Assembly (NCBI GenBank): GCA_945893045.1
Contig: CAMDEA010000017.1
Coordinates: forward strand, 1-64,000
Origin: Planctomyces sp. SH-PL62
GTDB lineage: Bacteria > Planctomycetota > Planctomycetia > Planctomycetales > Planctomycetaceae
Direction: 5' to 3'
DNA: 64,000 nucleotides
The position numbers and the translations under genes are program-made. The notes beneath the pieces are model-generated. The model had not been told where the DNA came from, did not search any database, and saw only the letters and a list, made by a program, of their open reading frames with translations. Shown piece by piece: positions 28,722 through 51,600 of the stretch (position 1 is the first letter of the stretch; every line of letters begins with the position of its first letter).

Positions 28722-30467
28722 ATGCCCCGTATTCAATGGCGATTCCGTTTGTTGTCCGCGTCCGCGTTGTCCGCCGCCTTGTGGTTCGTTCCGCAAGCCG
28801 GCCACACCGAGGAAGCTCCCGTGGCGGCGGTTCCTGCGGCTGAATCGGCTGCTGCGGAAGCCTCCGAGTCCAAGCTCGCACCGGCTGAGGAAACTCCGTT
28901 GACGGTGGCATTTCGCGAGCATCTCGCTGCACCGCAGTCCGGCCAGTGTGGTCGGCCCGATTGCCCGATCTGCAATCCCAAACCGGCCGCGAAACCGCCG
29001 GCACCAATCCTGCCTTGGAAGGGGCTCTATTTCGATAACGACTTCTCGTACAAGACCAAGCCCAACGCTCCGCACTTCCTCGGCGAAGAGTTGAAGAACA
29101 TTCCGCTGTTCGATTGCGACTGCGAACCGAGTGGGATCACGCTGTCCGCCGGCGGCGAGATTCGGCACCGTTATATGAACGAAGACAATCGCCTGCGGCC
29201 GGGGGGACCGGGACGTAGCGACTACGACTTGTATCGTTGGCGTCAGTATGTGGACCTCAAGTACCGGGACGAGTTCCGCGTCTACGTCGAGGGTATTGAC
29301 GCGTCGATCTTCGGAGCCGAACTGCCGATCACCGGCATCGACAAGAACCGCTGGGACATCCAAAACGCGTTCTTCGATTTGAAGGTCGGGGAACGAGACG
29401 GCAAGCCGGTTTATTTCCGCGCGGGCCGCCAAGAGTTGCTCTATGGAGCGCCGAGCGGCGTCAGCCCCGGTCAGCAAGTGATCTCGCCGCTGGATTGGGC
29501 GAACACACGCCGGAATTTCGAGGGCTTCAAGATGTTCAGCAAAGGGGAGACGTGGGATCTCGATCTGTTTGCTGTGCAACCGGTCAACACGGCCAACCCA
29601 ACCGGACCGAAAGGTGGTCGTCCAGCGGCTGGACTGACCTCGGCGGTCAACACGTGGGACCATCAATTCGATCACGCCGATGGCTCGCGTTGGTACAGCG
29701 GAGCCTACATGGTCTACAAAGGAATCAAGGACAACACGATCGAACCGTACTACGTCTGGCTGCAAACCGATCCCAGCAAGCAAGACGGCACTTGGGCCGA
29801 TGGGAATCGGCATACGCTCGGCCTGCGTTGGACCTCGACGAAGCCGATCAAAGATGAATGCGATCAACCGTGGATCGTCTTGGCCTCGGACATTGAAGGG
29901 GCGTACCAATTCGGCCGGGATAACGACGAGCGCGTGCAAGCCGGTTTCTTTACCAGCAAGCTCGGCTCGACGTTCTCACAGTTGCCGTGGACCCCGCAAT
30001 TGAGCGTCCTCTACTACTACGGCTCCGGCGACAAGACGAAGGGGGATGGCACGAACTCGACCTACGATGTCCTGGTTCCGTTGAATCATGCGTATTGGGG
30101 CATCATCGACAGTCTCGCCGGCCAGAACCTCAACGACTACGCCCTGCAAGCCACCGTGAAGCCGCACGCGAAGCTGTCCGGCCTGGCGGCGTTCCACTGG
30201 TTCAATCAAGTGTCTGGCGGTGACAACGTCTACAACGTCGCGGGTTCTCCCGTGGGTGGACTGAACACGGGCCGGAACCTCGGCCAGGAACTCGATCTGA
30301 TCACGACCTATACCTACAACCCGAACTTCGACGTGCAATTTGGGTATAGCTGGTTCTGGTACGGCTCGCACTTTAAGGACAACGGCGTGGTCAATAACGC
30401 GGTGATCAGCGGCAGGCCACTCGAAGACGCGACGCAGCTCTACATTCAGACGTCGCTGCGATACTGA
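28722..30467 (+). CDS. outer-membrane porin of the alginate-export type
   Basis: 581 residues from the ATG at 28722. The 54 codons upstream are not protein-like, and a signal peptide follows this start (RFRLLSASALSAALWFVPQA). An Ala/Glu-rich linker and a small Cys cluster (CGRPDCPIC) precede the beta-barrel. The barrel part resembles the Alginate_exp (AlgE-like) family: EIRHRYMNEDNRLRPGG, DLYRWRQYVDLKY, FRAGRQELLYG, ANTRRNFEGFKMF, ending in IQTSLRY with a C-terminal aromatic residue, as in outer-membrane proteins. Substrate is unknown. It probably delivers or releases an anionic sugar polymer, or acts as a general porin. Confidence 0.87.
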   Translation: MPRIQWRFRLLSASALSAALWFVPQAGHTEEAPVAAVPAAESAAAEASESKLAPAEETPLTVAFREHLAAPQSGQCGRPDCPICNPKPAAKPPAPILPWKGLYFDNDFSYKTKPNAPHFLGEELKNIPLFDCDCEPSGITLSAGGEIRHRYMNEDNRLRPGGPGRSDYDLYRWRQYVDLKYRDEFRVYVEGIDASIFGAELPITGIDKNRWDIQNAFFDLKVGERDGKPVYFRAGRQELLYGAPSGVSPGQQVISPLDWANTRRNFEGFKMFSKGETWDLDLFAVQPVNTANPTGPKGGRPAAGLTSAVNTWDHQFDHADGSRWYSGAYMVYKGIKDNTIEPYYVWLQTDPSKQDGTWADGNRHTLGLRWTSTKPIKDECDQPWIVLASDIEGAYQFGRDNDERVQAGFFTSKLGSTFSQLPWTPQLSVLYYYGSGDKTKGDGTNSTYDVLVPLNHAYWGIIDSLAGQNLNDYALQATVKPHAKLSGLAAFHWFNQVSGGDNVYNVAGSPVGGLNTGRNLGQELDLITTYTYNPNFDVQFGYSWFWYGSHFKDNGVVNNAVISGRPLEDATQLYIQTSLRY

Positions 30468-30508
30468 GCGACTTTGGACTTCCGCTCCGCTCGCCTGATT
30501 GACTTGTT

Positions 30509-30568
30509 GATTTGCAATCTGAAGGAAACCTGAATTCTTGGTTTTTGGTGTATCACAGATTGCAAATC
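30509..30568. promoter_or_regulatory. 13-base perfect inverted repeat between porin and small secreted protein
   Basis: GATTTGCAATCTG (30509-30521) and CAGATTGCAAATC (30556-30568) are perfect inverted copies 34 bases apart. The right arm is 21 bases before the start codon at 30590. It may be an operator or an attenuator-like hairpin; no T-run is present. Confidence 0.5.
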
Positions 30569-30589
30569 TCCTCCCTATCATCCTCCGCC

Positions 30590-30982
30590 ATGTCGCTCGC
30601 CCGAACCTATCCACTGCTCCGCATCAGCCGTTTCGCGGTTGTGGCGGCGCTGTTTGGTTTGTGGTTGGTCAGCGAACAAGCGTGTCAGGCGAGTTGCGGC
30701 GATTACTTGGTTCATCACGGCACGCAGACGCACGCGACCGATTCGTCGAACGCGCCGCACGAGATGCCCACCACGCCGTGCCGAGGAGCCAATTGCTCCC
30801 GCCGATCTGAGACCCCGCCTCTCCCGACTCGACCGACGGTCGAGACAACTTCCGTGGAGTGGCTCTGCGTGATCGAACAGATTCGTGGCCAGGACGATGA
30901 GTCCCATCGCTGGTCGCTGGAGTCTGGATCGCTCATGGCTCGGCATACGAGCCAACTGCTGGATCGCCCTCCGCGAGGGTAA
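30590..30982 (+). CDS. small secreted protein of unknown function
   Basis: 130 residues from the ATG at 30590, chosen because a signal peptide (ISRFAVVAALFGLWLVSEQA) starts shortly after. The mature part starts with CQASCGDYLVHHG and contains another Cys pair in PCRGANC, which suggests disulphides in an extracytoplasmic protein. No domain is recognised, but similar short Cys-containing proteins occur in planctomycetes. It follows the porin with the inverted repeat 30509-30568 between them. Confidence 0.6.
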   Translation: MSLARTYPLLRISRFAVVAALFGLWLVSEQACQASCGDYLVHHGTQTHATDSSNAPHEMPTTPCRGANCSRRSETPPLPTRPTVETTSVEWLCVIEQIRGQDDESHRWSLESGSLMARHTSQLLDRPPRG

Positions 30983-31097
30983 TGCCGATCCATCTGGAGT
31001 CACGCGCTGACGCTGGGCTTGTCCCTGCGCATCCTCGTCCAAGCGGCGAGATCGTGTTGCGTCGCGATCGCTGACTCACGTTTCAGACGGATCAACG

Positions 31098-31302
31098 CTC
31101 AGCCCTAAAAGGGCGTGACTCGATAGTCCAGGGCAACGCCTTGGGTGAATCAGTCGAACGAAAACCTTTAGCCCTGAGGGGCGCAACTTCCGCGGATGTC
31201 ATGCGAGTCTCGCCCCGTCGGGGCTGAACACCATTTGGTGTGGACTCACCCAGGGCGATGCCCTGGGCTATCGAGTCAGTCCCCGTTGGGGCCAAGACCG
31301 GA
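31098..31302. repeat. about 200-bp multi-hairpin element, copy 2
   Basis: Same architecture as 27037-27239: CAGCCCTAAAAGGGCG, CTCGATAGTCCAGGGCAAC, a central GCCCTGAGGGGCGCAAC facing TCTCGCCCCGTCGGGGCTGA, then ACCCAGGGCGATGCCCTGGG and CTATCGAGTC. It occupies most of the 420-base gap before the DUF1559 gene. Confidence 0.85.
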
Positions 31303-31402
31303 AGACTGATGACCCCCGATTCGTTCCATGTCCGTGCGGAAATTCCGCCGGTGTTTCGTCTCTGTGATTTTTTCTCTGGCCTTCATTTTTCGGAGAACTG
31401 TG

Positions 31403-32401
31403 ATGTCTCAATCTCTTCGTTCCCCATCGGTTCGTCGTGGTTTCACGCTGATCGAACTCTTGGTTGTCATCGCCATCATCGCCGTCCTGATCGCGCTGCT
31501 GTTGCCCGCCGTGCAGCAAGCTCGCGCGTCCGCTCAACGGGCGCAGTGCAAGAATAATCTCAAGCAACTGGGACTCGCCCTGCACGCTTACGCCAGCGAT
31601 TCCGGCTGTTTACCAATGGCCTCCGGCGCAAACGGCTTTTCGCCCCATGCGAGACTTCTCCCGTATCTCGATCAGGCGCCCTTGTTCAAAACACTGAATT
31701 TCAAAGTCAGCGTCTCAGCGACGACGATCCCCGCTGATCCCGGCAATGCCGCCGCGTGGGTCAAGACTCTGCCAGCATTCCGCTGTCCTTCGGATAACGA
31801 CACGAACGTTGGCGCTCCCAGTGTGGTGGGGGGCCGGAACAACTACTGGTCCAATTACGGCACCGGTGTCGTGGTGAGTCTCCCCGGAACGGTCGTCGGA
31901 TCGACCAACTACGGCATGCCGATGCCGAACGGGCCCATGTACCAACTCAGTCGCATTAAGATTACTGATATTCTTGACGGCACGAGTACCACGATTCTGT
32001 TTTCCGAAAAGTTGATCGGCGACGGCAGCGACGCGATCAGCACTCCGGACACGGACACTTATAAGCCCGGCTCTTACCCAGCGAACGAGAACGAAGCGTA
32101 TCAGTTCTGCGAGGCGGCGAATGTGAACGACCTGACCCAGCAGGGAAAATCTTTCAACTGTGTTTCTTGGTTGGGGGCCGGGAATCAATCGACGTTCGTC
32201 AACACGTCCATACCACCCAACAAGCGCGGGTGTATGTACCCGCCGAGCCGCATGGCGTCAGCGGTCAACAGCAGGCACACGGGTGGCGTGCATGTCCTGA
32301 TGTGCGACGGCTCGGTGAATTTCGCGTCGAACAGCATCGACGTGCTGGTTTGGCGAGCCCTCGGCACGCGAGCTGGCAAGGAGCCTGGTGCCCGATTGTA
32401 A
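31403..32401 (+). CDS. DUF1559 type II secretion pseudopilin-like protein
   Basis: 332 residues from the ATG at 31403 (GGAG eight bases upstream; 25 codons of unsupported frame precede it). The N-terminus RRGFTLIELLVVIAIIAVLI is a class III prepilin signal with the peptidase site before Phe and a following hydrophobic helix. The DUF1559 body contains the conserved CKNNLKQLGLALHAYA, and ends with the H-X9-DG signature (HTGGVHVLMCDG). Such proteins are highly expanded in planctomycetes, assumed to be exported via pseudopilus-like machinery, with unknown function. The adjacent small lipoprotein (32553) is a common partner. Confidence 0.95.
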   Translation: MSQSLRSPSVRRGFTLIELLVVIAIIAVLIALLLPAVQQARASAQRAQCKNNLKQLGLALHAYASDSGCLPMASGANGFSPHARLLPYLDQAPLFKTLNFKVSVSATTIPADPGNAAAWVKTLPAFRCPSDNDTNVGAPSVVGGRNNYWSNYGTGVVVSLPGTVVGSTNYGMPMPNGPMYQLSRIKITDILDGTSTTILFSEKLIGDGSDAISTPDTDTYKPGSYPANENEAYQFCEAANVNDLTQQGKSFNCVSWLGAGNQSTFVNTSIPPNKRGCMYPPSRMASAVNSRHTGGVHVLMCDGSVNFASNSIDVLVWRALGTRAGKEPGARL

Positions 32402-32552
32402 GGACGTGCTTCAGATCGTCGGCGCTCTTCGATTGCCGACGGCTTTGCTCTCGAAAGGTGCGCACGACGGCGTGCGCACCCCTTTTTCTGCTTCGCGCTG
32501 GCGCGAGGTTCCGCGCTTTCCTTTGAGTCCCCTTTGTGATTGAGGTTTTTCG

Positions 32553-32942
32553 ATGACAATTCGTTCGATGACAACGTGGCCGCGTCGGCTGCTGATGTTG
32601 GCTCTGCTGTGCGTGGTCTTGATTGGCTGCGGTGGACCACACGGTCAGCCCGTCAATCCCACGACGGCCAAAGACGTCTTGAAGACATTCCTTCAAGCAT
32701 GGCAGGACGGCAAGAAGGCCGAGGATCTCAAGCCGGCCATCATTGGTGCCGACCGAGAATGGAATGCCGGCAAGAAGCTCGCTGCTTTTGAAATTCTGCC
32801 CGACGAAGCTAACCAAGGAACCCGGCTGAACATGTCGGTGAATTTGACGCTGAAAGACGACAAAGGTGCTGAGTCCAAATCCACGGTGAAGTACGCCGTG
32901 AGCACCGCCCCTGTGGTCACTGTGCTTCGCGATGACGATTAA
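32553..32942 (+). CDS. small lipoprotein
   Basis: 129 residues from the ATG at 32553, supported by GAGG seven bases upstream; an ATG at 32568 is also in frame. The signal peptide ends in the lipobox LIGC (about residues 23-26), so the protein is predicted to be lipid-anchored. The mature part (AKDVLKTFLQAWQDGKKAED and a C-terminal TVKYAVSTAPVVTVLRDD) resembles small planctomycete proteins of a cystatin-like or NTF2-like type, found next to DUF1559 genes. Function unknown. It is probably cotranscribed with the DUF1559 gene, and the selenoprotein gene starts 33 bases downstream. Confidence 0.85.
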   Translation: MTIRSMTTWPRRLLMLALLCVVLIGCGGPHGQPVNPTTAKDVLKTFLQAWQDGKKAEDLKPAIIGADREWNAGKKLAAFEILPDEANQGTRLNMSVNLTLKDDKGAESKSTVKYAVSTAPVVTVLRDDD

Positions 32943-32975
32943 GCGACATCCACCATTTTCCTCAGGAGATTTTCC

Positions 32976-34430
32976 ATGCGATTTTCGACAACCGTTCTAC
33001 TTGGCGTCGCGGTGTCATCCGCGGCGCTGGCCGTCGCGGCGGATTCGGGGAATGCGCCGCTTCCCGTGCCGCTGACTCGGCCGGTCATGAAGCAGGCGCT
33101 GGAGGATATGAAGGGACGCAAGGAGCGCATCCCTCTGCCGGAATTGACCGATGCCGATAAGGAGAAACTCGGCGAACGGTCCACGAGCTATGAAAGTCGG
33201 CTGCGCTATCACTACATGCCGTACAGCGAGGGGCAAGGGTCAGGAGTCTCCAGCCGCGGAACCGGCGGCGGTGGATTCGGCCGCAGTAGCGATCCGGATA
33301 TGGGCCTTGACTATGCCTTCACGGTGGAGTTGTTCTGGCTCGTTTCACGAACCAACAACTGCCTGTATTGACTGGGTCATCAAGAATCGAAGCTCGCGGT
33401 CGCGGGCTTAAGCGAAGATCAGATCGCGTCTTTGGATGGTGATTGGGCGGAACACACACCGGCTCAGCGAGCGGCTTATGCCTTCACTCGCAAGCTGACC
33501 TACGAACCGCATCGCCTCGGCGACGCGGACATCGTCGAACTCCGCAAGCATTACTCCGACAAGCAGATTCTGGGGATCGTCTTGTCCGTTGCCGGCTACA
33601 ACTCGACGAACCGTTGGAAAGAGGGCGCGGGTATTCCGCAGTCCTCCGGCGGCGGCAACTTCGGCAGCCGACGACCTGAAGTTGCAACCGCAGGGGCCCA
33701 GAAATCTGCAGAGAAATCCGCTGAGAAGGCCGAGCGTCCGCCCGAACGAAGTCATAACTACCTGACTCCCACGTCGCCGAAATTCCAAAACGTGATCACC
33801 AAGGTTGTGCCGCTGATGATCGACGAGAAAACCGGCAAGCCATCCACGCAGACTGTCTTCCGCCGTGCTCCACTGGAATCGCGAGCGGATACGCAGAAAG
33901 CGTTGGCCGCCGCGCGGCAGCGAGCATCGCGTCTGCCGTTGGTTGACGAAGCCGCGGCGCGAGAACTCGCTCCCGAAGGTTTCCCCGAAGGAGCGTTGCC
34001 GCAGTGGGTGCGGCTGCTGTCCACGTTTCCGACGAGCGGCAAGGGCCGCATCTCCAGCATTCATTCCGCCGAAACTCGTGGCGACCTCAAGCCACTGTTG
34101 AAAGCTCAAGTCAGTTGGATCGTTGCCCGTCAGGATCGAGCTTGGTACGCACTCGGCCAAGCCCAGCGACGTCTTCACGAGTTGGGTTGGTCCGATGACC
34201 AAATCTTCAAACTCGACGGCGACTGGTCGGAGTTCACTCCGGCCGAGCGTGCTCAGTTCCGGTTGGCTCGGCAGTTGGCCGCGTCGCCGATCATGCTCAC
34301 CGACGCCGAAACGGCGGACACCGTGAAGCTGGTGGGGCCGCGCGATGTCGTGCAACTCATCAGTTACACGACCAATCGAGCGTCCTTCAACCGCATCACG
34401 GAGGCTGCCGGATTACGGGTGGAGAAGTAG
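32976..34430 (+). CDS. secreted tandem AhpD/carboxymuconolactone-decarboxylase-like selenoprotein (CxxU)
   Basis: 484 residues if the in-frame TGA at 33369-33371 is read as selenocysteine (residue 132). The ATG at 32976 has AGGAG seven bases upstream, and a signal peptide ends near residue 22. The first AhpD/CMD-like domain reads FWLVSRTNNCLY-U-LGHQESKLA, i.e. the CxxC redox pair of this family with Sec as second residue (Cys129, U132, His135). A Gln/Lys/Arg-rich linker is followed by a second copy of the domain, whose equivalent segment is ARQDRAWYALGQAQRRL; it has lost both redox residues. The flanks match: SEDQIASLDGDWAEHTPAQR and SDDQIFKLDGDWSEFTPAER. It is likely a periplasmic thiol/peroxide-active enzyme. 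A SECIS-like hairpin follows the TGA. Confidence 0.88.
33390..33409 (+). promoter_or_regulatory. bacterial SECIS-like hairpin 1
   Basis: AAGCTCGC (33390-33397) pairs with GCGGGCTT (33402-33409), one G-T wobble, around a GGTC loop, the same tetraloop described for the E. coli fdhF SECIS. It begins 18 bases after the TGA (33369-33371). The loop G-T lies 27 bases after it. It is entirely within the coding sequence, as bacterial SECIS elements are. Confidence 0.75.
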
Positions 34431-34483
34431 TGCGTCACTTTGGTTTTGGACTGGTTGAACTTCCTTGAGCATCTCAGAGAATG

Positions 34484-34543
34484 GAATCTCAGTCGCGGGA
34501 GCGACTGAGCTACGTAGGCGAGTCGCTCCTGCGACTCGCATTC
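34484..34543. repeat. palindromic repeat, AGTCGC family
   Basis: Arms 34484-34506 and 34521-34543 are inverted copies with three mismatches, and each arm contains GTCGC ... GCGAC self-pairing. It lies between the first selenoprotein gene and the epimerase lipoprotein gene. Confidence 0.8.
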
Positions 34544-34604
34544 CGAACGTTTATCGGGGTTCAATCGGGTAGATGCTCCTCGACAATTCTCAGAGACGCA
34601 GGCC

Positions 34605-35804
34605 ATGAATATGTTCTTTCGACAAATGCTGGTAGGAGCGATGCTGCTTGGCGGAGGCTTGGCCTTCATTGGTTGTGAAGGCCAAGCCGCTAAGCCGGTT
34701 CCCAATGCGACGGACGGTTCCAAGCCGCCAACTCGGAAAGTTGCCCCGCAAGACGATCAGCCCGCCGTGACAAGCGAGCTGTATGGCAAGAACGAAAAGG
34801 GTGACGACATCCTTCGATACAATTTGCGGAACAGCCACGGAATGAAAGTCAGCGTGCTCAACCTGGGCGCGATCGTCACGTCGGTTGAGGTGCCCGATCG
34901 CGACGGCAAGTTCGCAAACGTGACCTTGAACTTCCCCGATGCGGCCTCGTACCTCGTCAATGCTCCGTACTTCGGAGGCATCTGCGGGCGATATGCGAAT
35001 CGCATCGCGAAAGGCAAGTTTTCTCTCGACGGCACCGAGTACGAACTGGAGGTCAACAACGGGCCCAACCATTTGCACGGTGGCAAGCTCGGCTTGATGA
35101 AACGAATTTGGAAGTCCGAGGGGTTTCAAAACGACGAGGCCGTCGGCGTGAACCTCTGGTACATCAGCCCCGATGGCGAAGAAGGTTATCCCGGCAAGGT
35201 CAGGTTCGGCGTCGCGTATTCGCTGAACGACAAGAATGAGTTGCGGATTGAGTATCACGCTGAGACTGACAAGCCGACCGTGCTCAACGTGACGAATCAC
35301 GCCTACTGGAATCTGGCCGGAGTGCCGGACGGTTCGATCCTCGATCACGAACTGACGTTGTCTTGCTCCAAGTATCTGCCGGTGGATGAGACGTCGATCC
35401 CGACGGGCGAACTGGCGGATGTCGTGGGCACGCCGATGGACTTCCTCAAGCCGGAGAAGATCGGTTCGCGGATTGACCAGACGGTCAACGGAGGCGGCGG
35501 CTACGATCACTGCTACGTCGTGGACGGCAAGGTTGGCAAACTGCGTCCTGCCGCGAAGATTGTCGAACCGAAGTCGGGCCGCGTGATGGAGATTCTCACG
35601 ACCGAGCCGGGCATTCAGTTCTACACCGGCAACTTTCTGGAGGGCACGCCCGCCACTGGCAACGCCGCCAAGCACGGTGGGTTTTGTTTGGAAACGCAGC
35701 ACTTCCCGGACTCACCGAACCGCCCTGAGTTCCCTACCACGAGACTCAATCCCGGCGAAGCCTATACTCAGACGACGGTCCACAAGTTTTCTGTGGCCAA
35801 GTAG
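34605..35804 (+). CDS. lipoprotein aldose 1-epimerase (galactose mutarotase)
   Basis: 399 residues. A lipoprotein signal (MLLGGGLAFIGC, lipobox Cys at about 24) precedes a galactose-mutarotase domain. Family landmarks: LGAIVTSVEVPDRDG, FGGICGRYANRIAKG, NGPNHLHGGK with the first active-site His, NVTNHAYWNLAG with the second His, the acidic YDHCY region and EPGIQFYTGN, and ETQHFPDSPNRPEFP with the catalytic Glu. It interconverts alpha and beta anomers of hexoses, here anchored outside the cytoplasm. It sits between two selenoprotein genes on the same strand; functional linkage is not evident. Confidence 0.95.
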   Translation: MNMFFRQMLVGAMLLGGGLAFIGCEGQAAKPVPNATDGSKPPTRKVAPQDDQPAVTSELYGKNEKGDDILRYNLRNSHGMKVSVLNLGAIVTSVEVPDRDGKFANVTLNFPDAASYLVNAPYFGGICGRYANRIAKGKFSLDGTEYELEVNNGPNHLHGGKLGLMKRIWKSEGFQNDEAVGVNLWYISPDGEEGYPGKVRFGVAYSLNDKNELRIEYHAETDKPTVLNVTNHAYWNLAGVPDGSILDHELTLSCSKYLPVDETSIPTGELADVVGTPMDFLKPEKIGSRIDQTVNGGGGYDHCYVVDGKVGKLRPAAKIVEPKSGRVMEILTTEPGIQFYTGNFLEGTPATGNAAKHGGFCLETQHFPDSPNRPEFPTTRLNPGEAYTQTTVHKFSVAK

Positions 35805-35875
35805 CCGGGGTGGAAGATGATTCGCAAGGATGATCGCGTGAGCCTCAACAGTGCATCGCACCTGGAGTGATCCCC

Positions 35876-37342
35876 ATGAAAACAAATCCGTGGCTTCGAG
35901 TCTTCGCCTGTGGCGCGGCCGTCGGTCTCGGCGGCCTGCTGGGCGTCCCATTGTGGGGAGCGGGAGATGATCCTCCGCAGGCGAGCAACAACTCTTTGTC
36001 GGTCAAGGACGATTCAGAGCCGGCTGTGAAAACGAAACGGAAGAAGAAGTCGAAGAAGTCCGACGAAACTCCGCAGGCCGACTCCTCCGAATCGGCTCGG
36101 CTGGAGCCTCACAGCTCAAGTCCCAAGCCCGAAGCTCCTCCGTCCGAGTTTGCTCTGACCAAAGAGCTGCTGGGCAACCTCAGCGCCGAGCACATGAAGT
36201 CGCTCGGTGAGATGCTCGATCAAGATTGGAAGGATCGGCCGGAGTGGGGCGAGATGGCGGTCGCGATCCTGAAAGACGACTTCATGCGCCCCGGCTCCGG
36301 TTGGTGGAAGCCGAGTGCGAAGCGCTACGACTGGAATTGGCTGAGCGAACATTTCGATGCGAACAAAGACGGCCAGATTGATCGCGACGAGCTTCCCGGC
36401 GATGTGGCCAAGGCCGATCAATTGTTCGAGCGGTTGGATCGTGATAGCGACGGCAAACTGATGCCAGCGGATTTCGACTTCACCGATCCGAACCCGGCGA
36501 ACGTGGCCGCGATGAAGGACAGGATGTCGAACCAACTCTTCACCCGGCTCGACAAGGACGCGAACGGTCGCGTCACGATGCAGGAACTGGCCGAGTTCTT
36601 TCGCTACGGCGACAAAGAGGAACTCGAATTTCTCACCCCGGAAGACCTGCGGTTCGCGATGGAACCTCCGCCGGCCAAGAAACCTGTCAGCGAACCGGAC
36701 AACAATCCCGCGTCCGCCGGCCCGTCCACTCCCGCCGCCGCGTTCAAAATGTTTTTGCGCGGCGACATGGGTTGGCTGACCGCCGGTCCTCAACTGGGCG
36801 ATGTCGCCCCGGATTTCACGCTGCCGAAACACGATGGCACCGCTAACGTCACGCTGTCCGACTCGTTCGGAAAGCGGCCGGTGGTGCTCGTGTTCGGCAG
36901 CTTCACCTGAGGCCCCTATCGATCCCAGTCTGGGGTCATCGACAAGCTGTTCGCTCGGTTCAAAGACCAAGCTGACTTCTATTCCGTTTACATTCGCGAA
37001 GCACACCCTTCTGACGGCTGGAGCATGGCCTCCAACAAACGCGTCAACATCGACATCGCGCAGCCGAAGACCGCCACCGAACGGACTCGCGCGGCAGTGC
37101 AATGCTGCGACTCGCTCAAGATGGCGCTGCCGTTGCTGGTCGATGGCATCGACGACGCGGTCGGCCGAGCCTACAGCGGCTTTCCCGATCGTCTCTATCT
37201 GATCGACCGCGACGGCCATGTCGCCTACAAAGGGGGCCGAGGACCGTTTGGCTACAAGCCGCGCGAACTGGAACAAACCCTGATCATGCTGCTGTTGGAT
37301 GAAGCGCTGAACGCCAATCATCCATCGCGCGGCCAGAAATGA
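35876..37342 (+). CDS. EF-hand plus iodothyronine-deiodinase-like selenoprotein
   Basis: 488 residues if TGA 36908-36910 is selenocysteine (residue 345). The ATG at 35876 has GGAG eight bases upstream, better than the GTG at 35867. A signal peptide is followed by a Lys/Ser/Glu-rich linker and three EF-hand loops (DANKDGQIDRDEL, DRDSDGKLMPADF, DKDANGRVTMQEL). From about residue 295 a thioredoxin-fold domain of the T4 deiodinase family begins. VVLVFGSFT-U-GPY aligns with the deiodinase GSCT-U-PP site. YIREAHPSDGW, a later VDGIDDAVGRAY, and DRLYLIDRDGHVAYKGGRGP with GYKPREL complete the family pattern. It is predicted to be an extracytoplasmic reductase or peroxidase; a thyroid-hormone substrate is not implied. 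Confidence 0.9.
36921..36937 (+). promoter_or_regulatory. bacterial SECIS-like hairpin 2
   Basis: GATCCCA (36921-36927) pairs with TGGGGTC (36931-36937), one wobble, around GTC; opening the last pair gives an AGTCT loop. It begins 10 bases after the TGA at 36908-36910, with the loop G-T 17 bases after it, the same range as in E. coli fdhF. Confidence 0.72.
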
Positions 37343-37375
37343 ATCAGGTGAGCGGGACGTTTTCGGAGCATCGAC

Positions 37376-37921
37376 ATGGCACACATCAAACTGCCCGACG
37401 GTGAGCCAGGGATCTCTGGACTGCTGGTCGCTTATCGCGACACCGAACAGCACATCAACGGTCTTACGCAAGCCGCGATGCGCGGTCCGTCGTCGCTGAC
37501 CGAGGCGGAGCGTGAATTGATCGCGGCGTATGTCTCCGCCGGCAACGACTGTGTTTTCTGAATGCAGGCCCACGGAGCCGCGGCGCGGCAACTGCTCGGT
37601 GAGCAGTCTGATGTGGTGGCGGAAGTCTTCGCGGACGTGGACACCGCCAAGATCGACGACAAGTTGCGAGCATTGCTGGTGATTGCGGAGAAAGTCCGTA
37701 TCGACGGACGGCTGGTCACGGACAACGACGTGCGAGTTGCTCGCGAGGCGGGCGCGGACGACAAAGCGATCCACGATACCGTCCTGATCGCCGCGATGTT
37801 TTCGATGTTCAATCGGTATGTCGATGGCCTGGCGACGTGGACGCCAACCGATCCTTCGTTTTACGAAGAGACGGGGAAGCGGCTCGCGACCATGGGCTAC
37901 GGCAGCCGCTTTCGCGAATAA
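37376..37921 (+). CDS. AhpD-like peroxidase-related selenoprotein (CxxU)
   Basis: 181 residues if TGA 37559-37561 is selenocysteine (residue 62). The ATG at 37376 has GGAG seven bases upstream and the gene begins 33 bases after the deiodinase-like gene, so they are probably cotranscribed. The family is the alkylhydroperoxidase AhpD-like core. AERELIAAYVSAGNDCVF-U-MQAH matches the usual N-x-C-x-Y-C-x-x-x-H with the second Cys as Sec (Cys59, U62, His66). The C-terminal part (LRALLVIAEKV, HDTVLIAAMFSMFNRYVDGL) is typical of peroxidase-related CMD proteins. There is no signal peptide, so it is cytoplasmic, unlike the other two. Homologues with Cys in this position are common. Confidence 0.9.
37591..37607 (+). 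promoter_or_regulatory. bacterial SECIS-like hairpin 3
   Basis: ACTGCTC (37591-37597) and GAGCAGT (37601-37607) pair perfectly around GGT; opening one pair gives a CGGTG loop. It starts 29 bases after the TGA (37559-37561), with the loop G-T 37 bases after it. That is at the long end of the spacing usually accepted for bacterial SECIS elements. Confidence 0.6.
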
Positions 37922-37981
37922 AGTAGCCGAGTCACTCCGTGACTCGATTCTCGGTTCGAGTCACGGAGTGACTCGGCTACT
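37922..37981. repeat. palindromic repeat with perfect 26-base arms
   Basis: Arms 37922-37947 and 37956-37981, built on AGTAGCCGAGTCACTCCGTG then ACTCGA, with an 8-base centre. It directly follows the AhpD-like gene's TAA stop and lies five bases before the stop of the gene on the opposite strand. It could be a bidirectional terminator. Confidence 0.93.
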
Positions 37982-37986
37982 TTGTC

Positions 37987-40005
37987 TCATCGCGGCAGCG
38001 AAGCGACGTTCGGGCGGCGGAGCAGGAGTTGGAACGACTCGTAGGAATGCACGGCCATGCCGCCAAACTTCTTGTACGAGCGAAATGAGTTCTCCGCTGC
38101 TTTGACTTGTTCCAGGAACGTGTCGTAGCTGTCGTCGCCGAAAGTGATCTTCGAGAGCATCTCGCTGGTGGCTTGGAAGGCGGGGATCTCGGCTCGGCCG
38201 GGATTGGCGAGATTGCGGTTGCGGAAGTTGCCGAGTTCGGGATCGACGCGGATGGCGGTTTCCGCGGCGGCTCGCAGTTGAGCGATGGCGGTGGGCGTCA
38301 GGTTCTGGCTGACGGCACCGAATTTGTCGCTGACGGTTTTCATCGCTCGTTGAAACCGAGCCAGCTCTTCGCCATTGGGTGCGAGCGGGACTTCCAATCC
38401 GATGTGGACGTTCTCGCCGTCGTCGAGCCGCCGCACTCTGAAACCTTCGTAGCGGCACAGGTCGCCAAATTCGCGAGCATTGCCACGGATCGCAGTTTCA
38501 AAGCGCTTGCGCGGCAAGCCGACAACGAACCAAGTGTCGGTGGGTGCGGACATGGAAGTCTCGACCCCCATGAAGACCCGCGCGCCTTTTGTCTCTTCGG
38601 CATAGCGCAGGATGTCTTGGCCGTGGACGACCATGCCATCGGCTCCGTCGGCGTTGTCGCGGTAGTTCATGATGCCCACATTGTCGAGCAGATCGACGCA
38701 GTGCCAACTGGCCGGCTTCTTCTTGCCGTTAAACGAGACCTCGCCAACCGGCTTGCCGGTCTGCTTGTCGGTATGATGCCACCAGAAGGGGAGATCGATG
38801 CCAAACGCCAATCCCGATTGCGTGCGCACGCGGCGCTGGCATTCGACATGTACGTCGAGAAATTCTTTGAGCATCCTCTCGCGGCGCGTGCGGTCGCCCC
38901 AGCCGAGCAGCACGTGCGGTTCGTTATCGAAATGAATGCCGTCGAAGCGTTGCTCCGGTGGCGACGCTTGATTGAACGCGATAATCGCCTCGACCACGCC
39001 CAGCGGGATCGAGTGCTTCAAGCGGGCACAGTATTCGGGATCGCCGTCGAGCGCGTGAATTTGCAGACGAGTCTGATGCGCAGCGGCGAGAAACGTCCGC
39101 AGCTTCTCGGTGTGACGCAACTCCACGCGAGCCGGTGCGGCTTTGCCGTTCGGTTGCGCAGCCAACGTGCTCATGGCGTCGGTCTTGTAGCCGACCTGCA
39201 CCCAGAGTTGCTCGATCCCTTCGGCCGCGCACAGGTCGAAGAGGCCATCGCGCGCGGTCTCGTTGTCGAGGAACTCGCTGAGTTGCCAGAGCCACATCGT
39301 GCGCGGCGCGGCATGTCGGACGATCTGGCGTTCGGCGTTTTCTGGCGAGTTCGGATTCAACTTCGCGGCGGCGGAGGTCTTGAAGCTGATGTCGTCGATG
39401 TAGATCGTCGATTGACCGACCGAATGAAACAGCAGCGTCAGTCCGCCCAGGTTCGACAGGTCCAATGCCGCCGCGTCCTTGAGCGGAACGAGCACCTCTT
39501 GCCACTGGCGGCTGACGCCATCGGGCAGAAACCCGCGAATCTCACCCAGTTCGAGCGAGTCTTCTTTCTCATGCCACGAACGATCCGACATCTTGACCTG
39601 GAACCGTTCACCGCCGACTTGCCCGCGAATCCAGAACGAGAGATAGGCATACGGCCGCGCGTCGAGGAAGCGTTTCTTGGCCGCCTTGGCGTTGAAGAAT
39701 TGGAACCAGACGCCGCAGTAACCCTCTTCGCGTTTGTCGGCGCGGATGCGCAGGCTGGTGCCGTTGGGGCCGCCGTGGAAGAAAGACTTGTCTCGGAGGA
39801 TGTCGATCTTGCTGGCTCCGGCTTGGAACCGGCCGTGCTGACCATCCATCGCGTTGGGAGTGCCGCTCTCGAAGTCATCGACCAGCGCGACCTCCGGGAC
39901 CGCGGCCTGTGCCGTGACTGTCATCAGCGTCGCGCCGACGATCAACGTGGCGAGCGCCCACCAACCGCGGCGCGTCGTTGAGTGATTGGAATGCAGACGT
40001 TTCAC
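37987..40005 (-). CDS. secreted protein with carbohydrate-binding-like and TIM-barrel-like domains
   Basis: 672 residues. A signal peptide of about 35 residues (WWALATLIVGATLMTVTAQA) is followed by a beta-sandwich resembling CBM11/CIA30-like modules (VALVDDFESG near the start, YLSFWIRG, then STIYIDDISF at about 200-212). The larger C-terminal part looks like a TIM-barrel hydrolase-type fold: MWLWQLSEFL, LWVQVGYK, FDGIHFDNEPHVLLGW with acidic residues, and VGIMNYRDNADG. I cannot assign a glycoside hydrolase family or catalytic pair. It is probably an exported carbohydrate-active protein. Convergent with the AhpD-like gene. Confidence 0.75.
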   Translation of the reverse strand: MKRLHSNHSTTRRGWWALATLIVGATLMTVTAQAAVPEVALVDDFESGTPNAMDGQHGRFQAGASKIDILRDKSFFHGGPNGTSLRIRADKREEGYCGVWFQFFNAKAAKKRFLDARPYAYLSFWIRGQVGGERFQVKMSDRSWHEKEDSLELGEIRGFLPDGVSRQWQEVLVPLKDAAALDLSNLGGLTLLFHSVGQSTIYIDDISFKTSAAAKLNPNSPENAERQIVRHAAPRTMWLWQLSEFLDNETARDGLFDLCAAEGIEQLWVQVGYKTDAMSTLAAQPNGKAAPARVELRHTEKLRTFLAAAHQTRLQIHALDGDPEYCARLKHSIPLGVVEAIIAFNQASPPEQRFDGIHFDNEPHVLLGWGDRTRRERMLKEFLDVHVECQRRVRTQSGLAFGIDLPFWWHHTDKQTGKPVGEVSFNGKKKPASWHCVDLLDNVGIMNYRDNADGADGMVVHGQDILRYAEETKGARVFMGVETSMSAPTDTWFVVGLPRKRFETAIRGNAREFGDLCRYEGFRVRRLDDGENVHIGLEVPLAPNGEELARFQRAMKTVSDKFGAVSQNLTPTAIAQLRAAAETAIRVDPELGNFRNRNLANPGRAEIPAFQATSEMLSKITFGDDSYDTFLEQVKAAENSFRSYKKFGGMAVHSYESFQLLLRRPNVASLPR

Positions 40006-45648: not shown

Positions 45649-48600
45649 TCAGACGTTGCGAGTGTCTTGCGATTTTGGGGTTGAGTTCTTTTCGCTCCAG
45701 GGCAGGAACAGATGCCACCAGGGGCGTGAGGCGTTGGCTTGTCGTGAGTCGTCGTTACCGGGCCGGGAGTTCTGCGTCGTCTTGCCCTGACCTTTTCCAG
45801 CGTTCGGCTGGGCAGATGGCGGCGTCGATTGTTCGTTTTTGTTGGGTGTCGCCGGAGTGGTACGGTTGCGTTCGAAGGTCGTGGGTTTGGCTTTGGTTCC
45901 CCCACTGTTGCCCTGCGGTGGATTTTGTTCCGGAGAGCGTTGGCCGTTATTGAGCGGGACGGGCGAATTGGGTCTGGACTTGGCATTGGCTCGAATCTGA
46001 GCTTGCAGTTCCTCCAGAGTGATTTTGCCATCGCCATCTTTGTCGGATGGGAGGAGTGTTTTCCAATCGTCTTCTCCCACTTCGTCGGCCGTGATCATGT
46101 TGTCGTTGTTCTTGTCGAGCTTCTGCAACAAGTTCGCGGCACGTTCTTGAATTTCCTCTTCAGTCAGAGTCTGTGGTGGGTTCAATTCGTCGAGAAAACC
46201 GAGCGGCAGATTCTGGAAGAATTGCGCCACGAGGCTGTTGAAGTCGCGCTGGCCGAACGCACCCACCACTCCGAATCCGGCGGCGTTTCCAGAGTTCGCG
46301 GCGGCCAGTCCCAACCCGACCGGAATCGGAGAGTTGGAATTGTTGTTACCGACTTGAAGCACGACGGACGCGAGGCTGTTTTCCGACAGTGTGCCACTGA
46401 TGGGCGTGGTCGTTGTCTGCCCGCTTGTGACGACCGTGGCGGAGCCATTGAAGACGCCGTCGCCACCGACACCGCTGAGTTGCACGGTGTACGTGCCAGT
46501 GGGAGGCAAGGGCACGACCAGCACTTCGACACTGCCATTGCCAGAATAGTAGGTGCCGGGAATCTGATTCACGACGCCCGTGTTTTCCGTGAAGCCTGAA
46601 CTGCGATTCTGCGGATCGGTCAGCACGAAATCGACGGGATCGATCACGATCAGGATGTAATCGGTCAGCCCATTGGCCTCGATGAATTGCTGCGCCTGTG
46701 CGACCAGCATCGCGACCACTGCGGGGTCTTTCGCACCGTTGTTTCCACCTGGGTCATCGAACGTGTCGTTGAGCAACTCCGTCAGATCGTCGCCGTCCTC
46801 CGTGAGGATCGCCTGATCGTCGTTGCGGATCACCAATCGAACCGCCGAGTTGTCGGCGTCGATCGACACGTTGGGCTGCAAAAGCGAACTCGGCAACGAC
46901 AATTCGACGGAGAAGGTTTCGTTGTCTTCCACCGTCAGGTCGCCAATGATCGACACGAAGATCGTTTTCGTGACCGTGCCCGCGGCGATTTCCGCGAGCG
47001 TGAACACGAACGTCCCGCTAGGCGCGGTGTAATCTCCGTCGGCGCTGGACGCGGTTCCGTCCAGAGCCGTGAAATTGACCGTCACGTCGCTCACCGGTTT
47101 GCCGGCGAGCGTGACCGTCAGCGGAATTTGCATCTGGCCGGAATTGCCTTCGACGATCGGAACCAGGGGACTCGTGATCGACAGTGTCACGTTCGCGGAA
47201 TCGTCATTCAGGATGGTGCCGACCACGGTCGAACGGGCAACGCCCAGATTGATCGGATCGGTGAACTGCAGGCTGACTGTCTCATCGGGTTCGTTTGCGA
47301 GATCGCCCAGAATCGGTAGATGGACTTCGAGCCGGATGCGGCCAGTGAGGGGATCGCGGTCGGCCTCGGTGAACGTCAGTCGTTGCGTGTCCGTTCGCAT
47401 GACGCCGCCGAACTTCGTCTCGAAGGCGGTGCCGTAGTCGGTCCCACTGCTTGCGGTGTCGATAGCGTTTCCGATGCTGTAATCCACTGTTGCTTCGGTC
47501 GCCCCCAATGGTAGGTCGCCGACCAATTCGGCCGTGAAGACTAACTCGTTTGAACTGATGGGATCTCCTTCGAGCATTTCCGCATTCGAGATGAGCAACT
47601 GCGGCACGGAGTCGTCGTCCAGGATCTGGGCGATCGCGACGGATTGCTGCGTCGCGAGCGTCGCGTTGACCGGAGATTGCAGTTGGACGAAGAAGAATTC
47701 GTTCGGTTCTGCCACCGTGTCGGCATTGATTTGCACACGCACGGGGACATCGGCTTCCGTGGCTCCGGCGGGGATCGTCACCATTCCCGCGGATCGGAAG
47801 AAATCGCGGCCGGTGGCTTGATCAGTGGCGAATGCCGAATTCGCGGCGATGCCTTCCGGGACCATGAACGTCGGCTCGTCGCCGCGCCGCGTTGCGAAGT
47901 TGACGGTGACGGGTTCCGTCGTTGGCTTATTGAGCCTCACGGTGAAGTTCACGAAGTTCTGCCCAAAGTTTCCTTCGACCACGTTGACTCGGGTGGGCAG
48001 AATCGAAACCTGTGGCGGCGAGTTGTCTGGTACCTGGCTGACGTTGATGACAAAGGATTGGATCGTCGAAACGTCGCCGTCTTCATCGACCGCCTGCCCC
48101 ATGATGGTGTGCTGCGTCGCGTCGGAGAAGTTGAGCAACTGGCCGTCATTGACCGTGACGACTCCCGTGGTCGGATCGACGGTGAAACGGCCGCCAGCGT
48201 TATCGGTCAACCGATAGAAAACGGTTTCGTCTTGGAGATCATCGGCGAACAGAGTGACGCCCACGCGGCTGCCGCGCAGGGCGCGTTCGGGAGTCGTGTT
48301 GTCGTTGCCGTCGGCATCCCGCAAGTTTTGTGGTGCGTCAAGCAGCGAGGCGATCGTGAATGTCGCGCTGGATGAGAGCATGCCGTCGGACGCCTGCACG
48401 GTGATGTCGTGGCTGGATGTCAGGTCGGGATCGATCTGGCTGGCGTCCAGCAAGGTGACAACTCCGGTGATCGGGTGGATCGCGAAGCGTCCATTGGCGT
48501 CATCGGTCAGCGTGAACGTGACCATGCCGCCGTGAGCGTCGAAGCTGTCGATGTTGACTCCCACGAGCGCGCCGTTGACGTCCGTGTCGGAGACTCGATT

Positions 48601-51600
48601 GGGAGCGTTGTTCGCATCCACCGGCGTGCTGGGCGGAGCATTCAAAACTGTAATCATCACGTTCGCCGTGTCGGTCGCGCCGGCATCGTCCGTGACCTCG
48701 ACCGTCAAGTTGAACGGTGGCTGAGTTTCAAAGTCCAAAGCCAGGGCGTTGTTGACGGTGATCTGCCCGGTACTGCTGATGGCAAACGCATTGCCGACAT
48801 TGCCACCGGTGATGGCGTAGGTCACCGGCGAATTGCCGATGGGGATGACGACGATACCGCCGCCGCCAGTCAGCGAGGCTAAGTCCGCGTCCAAGTCGTT
48901 CGACAGAACAACGCTGACGAACGCTCCATTTCCGACATCCTCGCTGACCGAAAACATCTGATCGTTAACGACGGGATCGCGATTGGCGATCAACGCGACG
49001 TCGTTTCCAATCGCTCCGCCCACGGTGTCGTCGCTGTCGTGGAAATAGTTGATGTGGAACTTCTGGCCGCCGATCGTCACCAGCGCGCCTTGATCGAGTC
49101 CGGCAAACCGGCCGCTGACGTCGTCAGTGCCGTCGTTGTCGATGAGGACAATCGTGTCGCCTTGTGCCGGCGTATAACCGAGCGTCGCATTCAACGTGAC
49201 GTTCATCCCAATGGTCACGGTGCCGGTGACGTTGAGCTGATCGTGGCCCGTGCCGGGCGTTGTGCCGTTGAGTTCCACACTGAAGGTCGAACCCGATTGC
49301 AGCGTGACGTTGCCCGTATTGAGGATGCCGGGAGACGCTCCCGGAGCGACAGTACCGCCGCTCTGTACGGTCAGCGTGTTACCACTGGCGATCGTGCCGG
49401 TGCCGTTCAATGTCGTTCCGTTGCCGACCGTCGTGTTGGAGGTGATTGAGCCTTCGAGTGACAGCGAGCCGCCAGAAACCGTCGTGGTTCCGGTGTACGT
49501 GTTCGTACCCGACAGCGTCAGATTGCCGGCACCCGTCTTCGTGAGTCCCGCAGCATTCCCGGAGATGTCCGCCGCGATCGTCAGTTCGTTCGTGGCATTG
49601 CCATCGGCGACCGAGACCTTGCGTGTCGCGCCGCCCAGATTCAGCTTGCCGGTGATCGTCGCGCCGATCGCACCTTGATTGATCGTCGTCAGCGTCATGT
49701 TGCCACCGAGCGTCAGTGTGCCAGTGCCGGTCGTCACGTCGGCTCCGTTGCCCGTGCCGATCTCCAGAGTCAGCGCGGAAATCGCTTCGTCGTGATTGTT
49801 CAAATCCAGGGTTGCCTGGTGTCCGAGTGACAAACTGGTGGCGTCCGCGATCACTCCAGAACTGCTGGATTGGAAAGTCCCGCTGTTGAGTCGGACGGTT
49901 CCGGTTCCGGCGGTCAGCCCCAGCACGCTGAGCGAATTCGCTTCGCTCAAGAATTGCGAACCGTCGCCGCTGCTGGTGTCGGTTGTCAGGTCGTTGACAT
50001 TGATGCTCAATGGATTGCCGTTGGCTCCGATCCCGCCGATGCCGGACGTGATCGAAAGTGAATCCGCCAGAATGTCCGTTGCCGCGTCGCCCGAAATGAC
50101 CGTCGCCGATCCAGAACCGCTCAGTGCGATCGTCACGTCGCCGCCGTTCGCATCCAGACTCGCGCTGCTGCCGCTGAACGACAGTCCGTTGTTGACGGCG
50201 GTTGTCAACGAAATGTTGGTCGCCGCCGAGCGCGTGATCGCGTCGCTGATGAACAGACCGCCGCTGTTCGCGTTGCCGAAGCCCAGCGCTCCGGCTGTGA
50301 CGCGGTTGAGTTCCGCGTCGGAGAGCTCCAATGTGCCGGGATTTGAATCCGTGATCGACCCCAAATTGATTTGCACATCATTGGTGGCCTGCCGGATCGA
50401 GACGTTGCCCGTCCCGGCATTGATCGCGGCCGTGTTCGCGATTGCCGCGCTGTCCGCGGCAATCGAGATCGGCGAGTTGCTGGCCGAGGATTTGATTTCG
50501 GCGTCCGTGGCCAATCGCATCGCGACGCTGTTGGCATTGGTCGTCGTGGCGGTGATCGTCACGGCTCCCGCGCCGGTGGATTCAATCGCTCCCAAGCCGG
50601 CTCCGATGAGGAAGCCTTCGTCATTCGAGCCGGTCCCTTGCCCCGCGCCGGTGATCGTGACGTCCGCGTTAGCCGAGCGAATGAACGATCCGCCGCCGCT
50701 GATGCGGAAGCCCTGATTGAAGGAGGTTCCCGTGCCACCCGTGCCATTGACGGTGATCGTCGCGGCGGATGTGCCGGTCGATTCAATGAACCCGCCGAAG
50801 TCGAACAGCGCGCCGATATTGGTGCTGCCGGTGCCGTTGCCGCCTTGAGCCGTGATGCTGACCGGACCCGAACCCGATGTGACGACCGACGAGAATTGGC
50901 TGATCGCCACGCCGTAGTTCGATCCTGTGCCCGATGCTCCGGTGCCGTCGATCGTGATTGGGGCCGAGCCGGTCGAGGACAACGCTCCGTTGACCACGAC
51001 ACCTTGATTCAGCCCGGTCGTCGCCAAGCTGTTGCCGGTGATGTTGATCGCTCCGTTGACCGCTGAGACTTGCGATCCGGTGCCGACCTCGACGCCGACG
51101 TGACTGGTATTGCCCGTGCCACCCGATCCGCCGGTGCCGTCCAACGTGATCGTACCCGTGCCGGTGGTTGAAACCGCGGCTCCGGCGTTCAACAGTCGGA
51201 TGCCGCGATTGCCCGTGCCGCTGTTGCCGCCTTGTCCTGCCAGCAGAATGTCGCCGTTGGTGGAACTGATCGCGGCCGCGTTCACGTCGACACCGACAAA
51301 GTTGCCCGCCGTCGACGTTTCCTGGTTGGCTTGCAAGGTCAGATCGCCATTGACCGTCGTAAGGCTCGACCCAGCGCTCAACAGGATGTTGCGATCCGAC
51401 GTCAGGCTGATCGTGCCTGCGCCGGTGGCGGCGATCGTCGCGCCGGCCACCACTTCCAGCTCGCCGTTGCCAGTTTTGACATCGACGCTGCCGTTCGTCG
51501 CCAGCGTCAGTGAATTGAGATCGAGGGCGTTCGATTCGGTGATGAAGATTCCGCCACTGCCCGTGGCTGAGGCCGTGAGCGAATCAATCGTCGTCGAAAG

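Follow-up and report, generated by a model that had tools for sequence, protein, structure and literature searches.

Three neighbouring genes with in-frame TGA codons

The window analysed here, by which we mean the whole 64,000-nucleotide stretch at positions 1 to 64,000 of contig CAMDEA010000017.1 (assembly GCA_945893045.1) of Planctomyces sp. SH-PL62, carries three neighbouring genes on the plus strand, each containing one in-frame TGA codon (33369, 36908, and 37559; Table 1). The TGA is translated here as U, for selenocysteine (Sec). The reading frame is open on both sides of the TGA in all three genes, and each TGA is located at the redox-active residue, namely in the motifs CLYU of gene 1 (SRTNNCLYULGHQES), FGSFTU of gene 2 (VLVFGSFTUGPYRS), and CVFU of gene 3 (AGNDCVFUMQAHG). 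Judged from their sequences, the three genes very probably encode genuine selenoproteins, because the Sec machinery, the Cys/Sec pairs in homologues, the selection past the TGA, the hairpins of the bacterial Sec insertion sequence (bSECIS) type, and the controls with Cys forms all support this reading. Annotation can easily mistake a gene with an in-frame Sec-TGA for a fragment or a pseudogene.

A preliminary description of the window had placed the three TGAs in frame at redox-active residues, with the downstream frame continuing the same family. Both statements were borne out when coordinates and frames were re-read; downstream of its TGA, gene 1 encodes the end of the first AhpD-like domain and additionally a second domain without a CxxC/U motif. 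The products of genes 1 and 2 have hydrophobic N-termini and that of gene 3 does not, suggesting that the former are exported and the latter is cytoplasmic. This prediction from N-terminal hydropathy fits the earlier proposal of two exported products and one that is not. Gene 2 is closed by a normal TGA stop (37340), 33 nt ahead of gene 3; therefore, TGA is not recoded in general.

Table 1 Features of the selenoprotein locus and its surroundings in the window
Feature	Positions	Strand	Remarks
Gene 1, predicted exported tandem AhpD-like selenoprotein, 484 aa, U132	32976..34430	+	N-terminal domain with CLYU, second domain without motif
Sec-TGA of gene 1 (U132)	33369..33371	+	Codon reading of 30 loci: TGA 7, Cys 23
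Putative bSECIS hairpin, gene 1	33390..33409	+	8-bp stem, GGUC loop, 26 nt from TGA
Gene 2, predicted exported EF-hand and deiodinase-family selenoprotein, 488 aa, U345	35876..37342	+	NF038285, PF00837
Sec-TGA of gene 2 (U345, FGSFTU)	36908..36910	+	Aligned to the Dio3/Dio2 structures at their catalytic Cys, which is Sec in nature
Putative bSECIS hairpin, gene 2	36921..36937	+	7-bp stem, GUC loop, 17 nt from TGA; compensatory changes in relatives
Gene 3, AhpD/peroxidase-related selenoprotein, 181 aa, U62	37376..37921	+	TIGR01926, PF02627; N-terminus not strongly hydrophobic
Sec-TGA of gene 3 (U62, CVFU)	37559..37561	+	Codon reading of homologues
Putative bSECIS hairpin, gene 3	37591..37607	+	7-bp stem, GGU loop, 36 nt from TGA; other possible hairpin at 37577-37589
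Aldose 1-epimerase family protein, encoded between gene 1 and gene 2	34605..35804	+	Present in 2/19 relative stretches
Putative small lipoprotein upstream of gene 1, a recurrent neighbour	32553..32942	+	
DUF1559/H-X9-DG pseudopilin-like protein, recurrent neighbour	31328..32401	+	

Selenocysteine machinery of the genome

The preliminary description expected SelA, SelB, SelD, and tRNA-Sec to be encoded outside the window and suggested a search of the rest of the genome, and all four were found above their cut-offs on other contigs of this draft assembly (7.83 Mb, 251 contigs, 89% complete). The window lies within contig C17, and selB (342 bits, cut-off 242; 653-codon frame), selA (522 bits, cut-off 268; 505-codon frame), selD (289 bits, cut-off 125; 753-codon frame with an extra N-terminal part), and a tRNA-Sec with a UCA anticodon (58.4 bits in Infernal with RF01852, gathering score 47) are located on C205, C165, C84, and C192, respectively. 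Fourteen other RF01852 matches of the genome do not reach the gathering score and were not counted; seven of them were fetched and are Ser, Gly, and Cys tRNAs. ARAGORN called no tRNA in the window itself.

By eye, the N-terminal half of the selD frame (L019 on C84) resembles an FAD/NADH dehydrogenase. The available text of PMC2398784 refers to fusions of Ndh with SelD.

Sec and Cys forms in relatives and selection past the TGA

In a sample of 170 genomes of the order, relatives at set E-value limits were obtained for gene 2 in 60 genomes, gene 1 in 61, and gene 3 in 11; a contig scan yielded six close relatives. At the Sec column of gene 2, 13 loci have TGA, 56 have Cys, and one is unresolved (70 of the 71 listed matches, the 71st being short of the column). 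The best 30 gene 1 loci among the matches listed comprise 7 TGA and 23 Cys forms, the weaker listed matches being mostly paralogues without stops, and all 11 loci of gene 3 gave 6 TGA, 4 Cys, and 1 unresolved. Residues other than Sec-TGA or Cys do not occur at the resolved columns of any of the three genes, and a comparison with Cys homologues, as proposed beforehand, thus places Cys opposite each TGA. Stop listings may include the true terminal stop: G051, G007, G119, and G143 were flagged as TGA and yet read Cys.

The selB gene, detected in 63 of the 170 genomes, is found in 10/12 genomes with a TGA form of gene 2 vs 14/48 with Cys only, in 6/7 vs 6/23 for gene 1, and in 6/6 vs 1/4 for gene 3, counts for which the Fisher tests take related genomes as independent (G104 and G114 look near-identical for gene 1). 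selB coexists with Cys forms in some genomes, e.g., G001, G108, and G110. UGA in frame in three genes would also be expected if UGA were recoded generally or read through at a low level as another amino acid. We regard this explanation as hardly conceivable, since UGA genuinely terminates gene 2 and several frames nearby, the non-TGA homologues have only Cys at these columns, and the genome has dedicated Sec machinery along with SECIS-type hairpins.

The sequence past the TGA is under purifying selection in all three genes. The ratio of nonsynonymous to synonymous substitution rates (dN/dS) after the TGA is 0.06‒0.19 for gene 2 within the genus and 0.23‒0.32 in farther TGA relatives, 0.13‒0.16 for gene 1 (same genus and G059), and 0.11‒0.17 for gene 3 (same genus). 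Set against four orthologues, the 13 codons that follow the gene 2 TGA show 2 synonymous differences in 52 comparisons vs 261 in 1321 elsewhere (Fisher P 0.002), a depletion of supporting value only, as other 10-codon stretches of gene 2 are equally low in synonymous change. Such a depletion would be expected if those codons overlapped with an RNA element.

SECIS-type hairpins downstream of the TGAs

We applied the bSECIS model given in the Fig. 2A legend of PMC13188914 (loop of 3‒9 nt with G in the first two positions, stem of 4‒16 bp, UGA-to-loop distance of 16‒37 nt, energy not above -7.5 kcal/mol) as a strict test that requires perfect stems. All three genes pass (-11.2, -8.1, and -8.4 kcal/mol for genes 1, 2, and 3), as do 169 of the 2189 TGAs in the window (7.7%) that form the background. 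For gene 3, the energy test favours the hairpin at 36 nt and not the one first drawn at 20 nt. In the relatives, a bSECIS hairpin accompanies 7/7 TGA forms vs 0/23 Cys forms of gene 1, 12/13 vs 1/57 of gene 2, and 6/6 vs 0/4 of gene 3. The gene 1 hairpin is identical across its seven TGA forms and its full stem is present in none of the 23 Cys forms, and the gene 2 stem at fixed offset has 7/7 pairs in all 13 TGA forms and at most five in the Cys forms.

When the deiodinase-family TGA forms of the order and phylum samples were combined into 35 rows, from which seven phylum loci duplicating order loci (L161-L164, L166, L169, and L171) had been dropped, the fixed-offset stem was fully paired (7/7) in 17 and the strict test was passed by 25, many with a slightly shifted hairpin. 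Covariation was assessed for the gene 2 helix. A hand-chosen set of eight distinct TGA rows (cluster-type rows and three paralogous ones; the other 20 of 28 rows were left aside) has 98% of cells paired, two-sided changes in three pairs, and a score for covariation of 0.551 vs 0.215 in shuffled alignments (reached in 0/500), falling to at most 0.102 when the helix was slid; two of the five measures are not clearly above shuffles in this set (69 and 29 of 500). The signal is weaker over all 28 distinct TGA rows, with 0.338 vs 0.155 shuffled (0/500), 66.8% of cells paired, and pairs with two-sided changes not above shuffles (459/500). The gene 2 hairpin pattern was found in no viral contig, and phage records gave no match.

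Assessment of the selenoprotein reading

These data bear on the possibility that the loci are pseudogenes or contain sequencing errors, so that the TGAs are mere nonsense mutations. A draft genome in 251 contigs and a single TAA in gene 1 of the relative G106 would be compatible with it, and we nevertheless consider it very improbable: for each gene the TGA recurs at the catalytic column in several genomes, dN/dS is well below 1 past it, the conserved hairpins are nearly missing from Cys forms, and the TAA of G106 has hit an ordinary residue, which is what would be expected of a random event.

Several observations weigh against the selenoprotein reading or limit its reach. The tRNA-Sec gene is truncated where its contig ends and was not called by ARAGORN, and selB was not found in three metagenome-assembled genomes with TGA forms, G057 (95% complete), G043 (80%), and G059 (90%). 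Of the 35 deiodinase rows with TGA, ten do not pass the strict test with perfect stems; together with the shifted hairpins, they indicate that the exact geometry is not universal. The gene 1 stem and both gene 3 stems are invariant among TGA forms and hence provide no covariation. The G106 orthologue of gene 1 (L058) has its TAA at an ordinary codon besides the Sec-TGA, reflecting either an assembly error or decay. If the N-termini are read correctly, gene 3 acts in another compartment than genes 1 and 2. The presence of selenium in the three proteins, and their partner, substrate, and activity, are predictions from sequence. The two findings that the preliminary description named as contrary to its selenoprotein reading, a genome without selB and selC and homologues without Cys at the TGA positions, were both looked for; the genome has these genes and the homologues have Cys, and the reading is supported. 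SelB would then deliver Sec-tRNA at the three UGAs.

Gene 2 product and the deiodinase family in the phylum

The gene 2 product matches NF038285 (420.5 bits, cut-off 250) and PF00837 (113.1 bits, cut-off 27), with EF-hands followed by a deiodinase domain, and has Sec at the position of the FGSxT-U motif where the deiodinase family carries Sec or Cys. Its nearest solved sequences are Dio3 (4tr3) and Dio2 (9h48), with U345 in their catalytic column. The nearest folds to its AlphaFold model, with a predicted local distance difference test (pLDDT) score of 68, are likewise Dio2/Dio3, along with thioredoxin-like folds, and AhpC/TSA, ResA, and AhpE also match the product.

Another contig of the window's genome carries a second gene of the deiodinase family whose Sec column is TGA (G000, C70:26464-26955; L145, L109). 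EF-hands are encoded in the frame upstream of it, and its hairpin is different in sequence and fully paired.

Searching a sample (not a census) of 392 planctomycete genomes with the gene 2 profile, with at most four candidates scored per genome, gave 126 matches in 99 genomes. Read codon by codon, the Sec column of these matches is TGA in 112 and Cys in 12, and is not covered in 2, of which 122 matches contribute 111 TGA, 9 Cys, and 2 not covered and the remaining four 1 TGA and 3 Cys; outside the window's own family the counts are 109 TGA, 4 Cys, and 2 not covered, and 8 of the 12 Cys forms belong to that family. A domain tree of the order and phylum rows, made by a quick method and containing several long branches, shows 3 Sec/Cys changes over 92 labelled rows, and one branch with 50 Cys rows and one unread row sits within Sec-rich rows. 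The tree leaves the root and the direction of Sec/Cys change open; a small number of Sec-to-Cys changes would be its simplest fit. The Sec-rich planctomycete genes form a large pool for the study of function in organisms not expected to have thyroid hormones, which makes bacterial deiodinase-like function testable.

Gene 1 and gene 3 products

Across 27 aligned sequences of the gene 1 product, the first half always carries C129 and C/U132, and no motif is present in the second half. That alignment (A2) includes 27 of the 30 gene 1 loci, leaving out L058 (stop inside), L055, and L065; alignment A1 has 20 rows from 30 loci. With 56.4 bits, the product is under the TIGR01926 cut-off of 81.8 and matches no Pfam family at E 0.01; a Cys orthologue does reach PF02627 (28.5 over 23). 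Gene 1 has the AhpD fold and the CxxC/U column and would therefore at most work like a TIGR01926 protein. By profile it matches PA0269 and 6k40, with a weaker match to the debrominase Bmp8 (E 9.4e-7).

The AlphaFold model of gene 1 (pLDDT 80.8) consists of two mostly helical halves. Foldseek with this model retrieved single-domain AhpD proteins, Bmp8 among the matches, and human Sestrin2 across both halves (5dj4, 5t0n, 5cuf, 9lwf, and 9lvj; best E 1e-3, probability 1.00). The Sestrin2 superpositions have template modelling (TM) scores of 0.48‒0.62 by target and 0.37‒0.42 by query, an identity of 9‒12%, and a global root-mean-square deviation of 6‒16 Å, and the gene 1 sequence does not belong to the Sestrin family by Pfam at E 0.01. 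We consider this modelled likeness to be a resemblance in architecture and claim no family membership. Sestrins have an active first half and a degenerate second half.

The gene 3 product, with CxxU, scores 91.4 bits against TIGR01926, over the cut-off of 81.8. Its nearest structures are bacterial AhpD-type proteins, and Bmp8 is absent from its matches at E 0.01.

Gene neighbourhood

Across genera, 19 stretches show a recurrent order with variations: a DUF1559 pseudopilin-like gene, a small lipoprotein gene, one or two copies of a gene-1-like gene, and gene 2, ending with gene 3 or a gene for a ~900-aa protein containing AhpD/CMD domains. Both gene 1 and gene 2 are Cys forms in G148, a one-contig genome in which gene 3 is also a Cys form, and in G140, G142, G138, G145, and G146; selB was not detected in these six genomes. 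Other genera have the same cluster with Cys, so Sec itself is not a requirement of the module. This recurrent multi-gene redox cluster, present in Sec and Cys versions in related genomes, constitutes a natural experiment on the benefit of selenium.

The three genes may be adjacent by chance and constitute no single functional module. A 174-nt gap and the epimerase gene separate genes 1 and 2, ABC-transporter genes assigned by Pfam lie between genes 2 and 3 in G111 with similar frames in G112 and G105, and gene 1 or gene 3 was not seen near gene 2 in some stretches. We judge a chance arrangement quite unlikely in view of the recurrence, in several genera and also in Cys form, of the DUF1559 and lipoprotein genes with genes 1 and 2 and often gene 3 or the ~900-aa multi-AhpD gene.

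A porin gene is found upstream in four stretches of the genus (G113, G111, G106, and G112), and an Rrf2-type regulator lies beside the G140 cluster. In G057 and G058, a fourth Sec-type TGA (CFYU) occurs in an AhpD domain of the ~900-aa type protein (L102 6019-7260; L110 326-1567).

Possible function of the cluster

AhpD serves AhpC in mycobacteria. By the sequences of its products, the cluster has about an even chance of being mainly an extracytoplasmic selenol/thiol redox module acting in thiol or peroxide metabolism. The selenolate of the gene 2 product, set in a thioredoxin fold with EF-hands, would reduce or attack a peroxide, disulfide, or halogenated substrate. The exported CxxU protein of gene 1 may be the reductant of the gene 2 product or a parallel peroxidase, and the cytoplasmic CxxU protein of gene 3 may do the same inside the cell. 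A link between extracytoplasmic and cytoplasmic peroxide or thiol metabolism is plausible.

The module may alternatively perform selenium-based reductive dehalogenation, in which the deiodinase and AhpD-fold (Bmp8-like) proteins would strip halogens from aromatics via selenolate/thiolate. Bmp8 and deiodinase reportedly dehalogenate by a common strategy. The closeness of gene 2 to iodothyronine deiodinases in structure and sequence and the gene 1 match to Bmp8 by profile and fold point in this direction; on the other hand, PA0269, 6k40, and others score better than Bmp8, which is also missing from the gene 3 matches, thioredoxin-fold deiodinase-like proteins could be peroxidases or disulfide reductases, and the part of the neighbourhoods scanned contains no halogen-related family among the neighbour proteins. 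We therefore hold dehalogenation to be unlikely. Equally doubtful is a broader proposal for the Planctomycetota, namely a selenium-based, largely extracytoplasmic dehalogenation/hydroperoxide system in which deiodinase-family proteins and exported Sestrin-like tandem-AhpD selenoproteins form a redox pair. If such a system were real, the catalytic design of animal deiodinases would derive from within an ancient group of bacterial selenoproteins in which Sec still predominates among the Planctomycetota, and few switches from Sec to Cys would have given rise to the Cys clusters in the order to which the window belongs.

Relation to known selenoproteins

The families themselves are already known as selenoproteins. 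Deiodinase-like, AhpD-like, and CMD selenoproteins are reported from marine metagenomes, the Sargasso Sea and Global Ocean Sampling (GOS) sets, in the available text of PMC1088965 and PMC2398784, and AhpD-like TIGR01926 and CMD-like selenoproteins with CxxU are among those listed in the accessible part of PMC13188914. Gene 2 shares its family (PF00837, NF038285) and Sec at the catalytic column with the bacterial deiodinase-like selenoproteins, but differs from them in having EF-hands ahead of the deiodinase domain and in that Cys forms predominate among its relatives within the order (56 of 69 resolved). Compared with AhpD-like selenoproteins (TIGR01926, COG2128, PF02627), gene 3 is alike, being above the cut-off with CxxU, whereas gene 1 falls below the TIGR01926 cut-off, looks exported, and has two AhpD-like domains with one CxxU site.

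Selenoprotein genes lying side by side, as at this locus, are described for multi-selenoprotein operons such as SAO, Tso, and Prx-like/AhpD-like pairs, including an AhpD-like member of a GOS pair (available text of PMC13188914 and PMC2398784). None of the NCBIfam families of Tso/SAO matched the three proteins (E 0.1), and the combination of a tandem AhpD, a deiodinase, and an AhpD protein is not named in those portions of the two papers. For the planctomycetes P1 and P2, PMC4807772 reports Sec-insertion genes and selenoproteins, naming fdhA and fmdB; the words 'deiodinase' and 'AhpD' are absent from its main text. In the literature searched, the three-gene cluster, the tandem-AhpD selenoprotein, and the phylum-wide predominance of Sec look new, while part of this may be described by Haft and Tolstoy 2025, on selenoprotein neighbourhoods, or in the Bmp8 paper.

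Other features of the window

A perfect 28-bp inverted repeat with an 8-nt loop (37920-37983) is located between convergent genes ending at 37921 and 37987 and is likely to be a two-way terminator or a repeat element; no other copy of its 23-base core occurs in the window at up to three mismatches. An Rfam scan of 30000-40000 gave no match above threshold, the weaker ones being two microRNA models on this repeat and SECIS_3 at 39110 (24 bits vs a gathering score of 63), the latter rejected and far from the TGAs. On the minus strand, an open frame of 6115 codons (45649-63996) extends nearly to the window end, and the 5800 codons scanned contain FG-GAP, SdrD_B, lactonase-type propeller, cadherin, and Calx-beta domains, identifying a putative giant surface protein.

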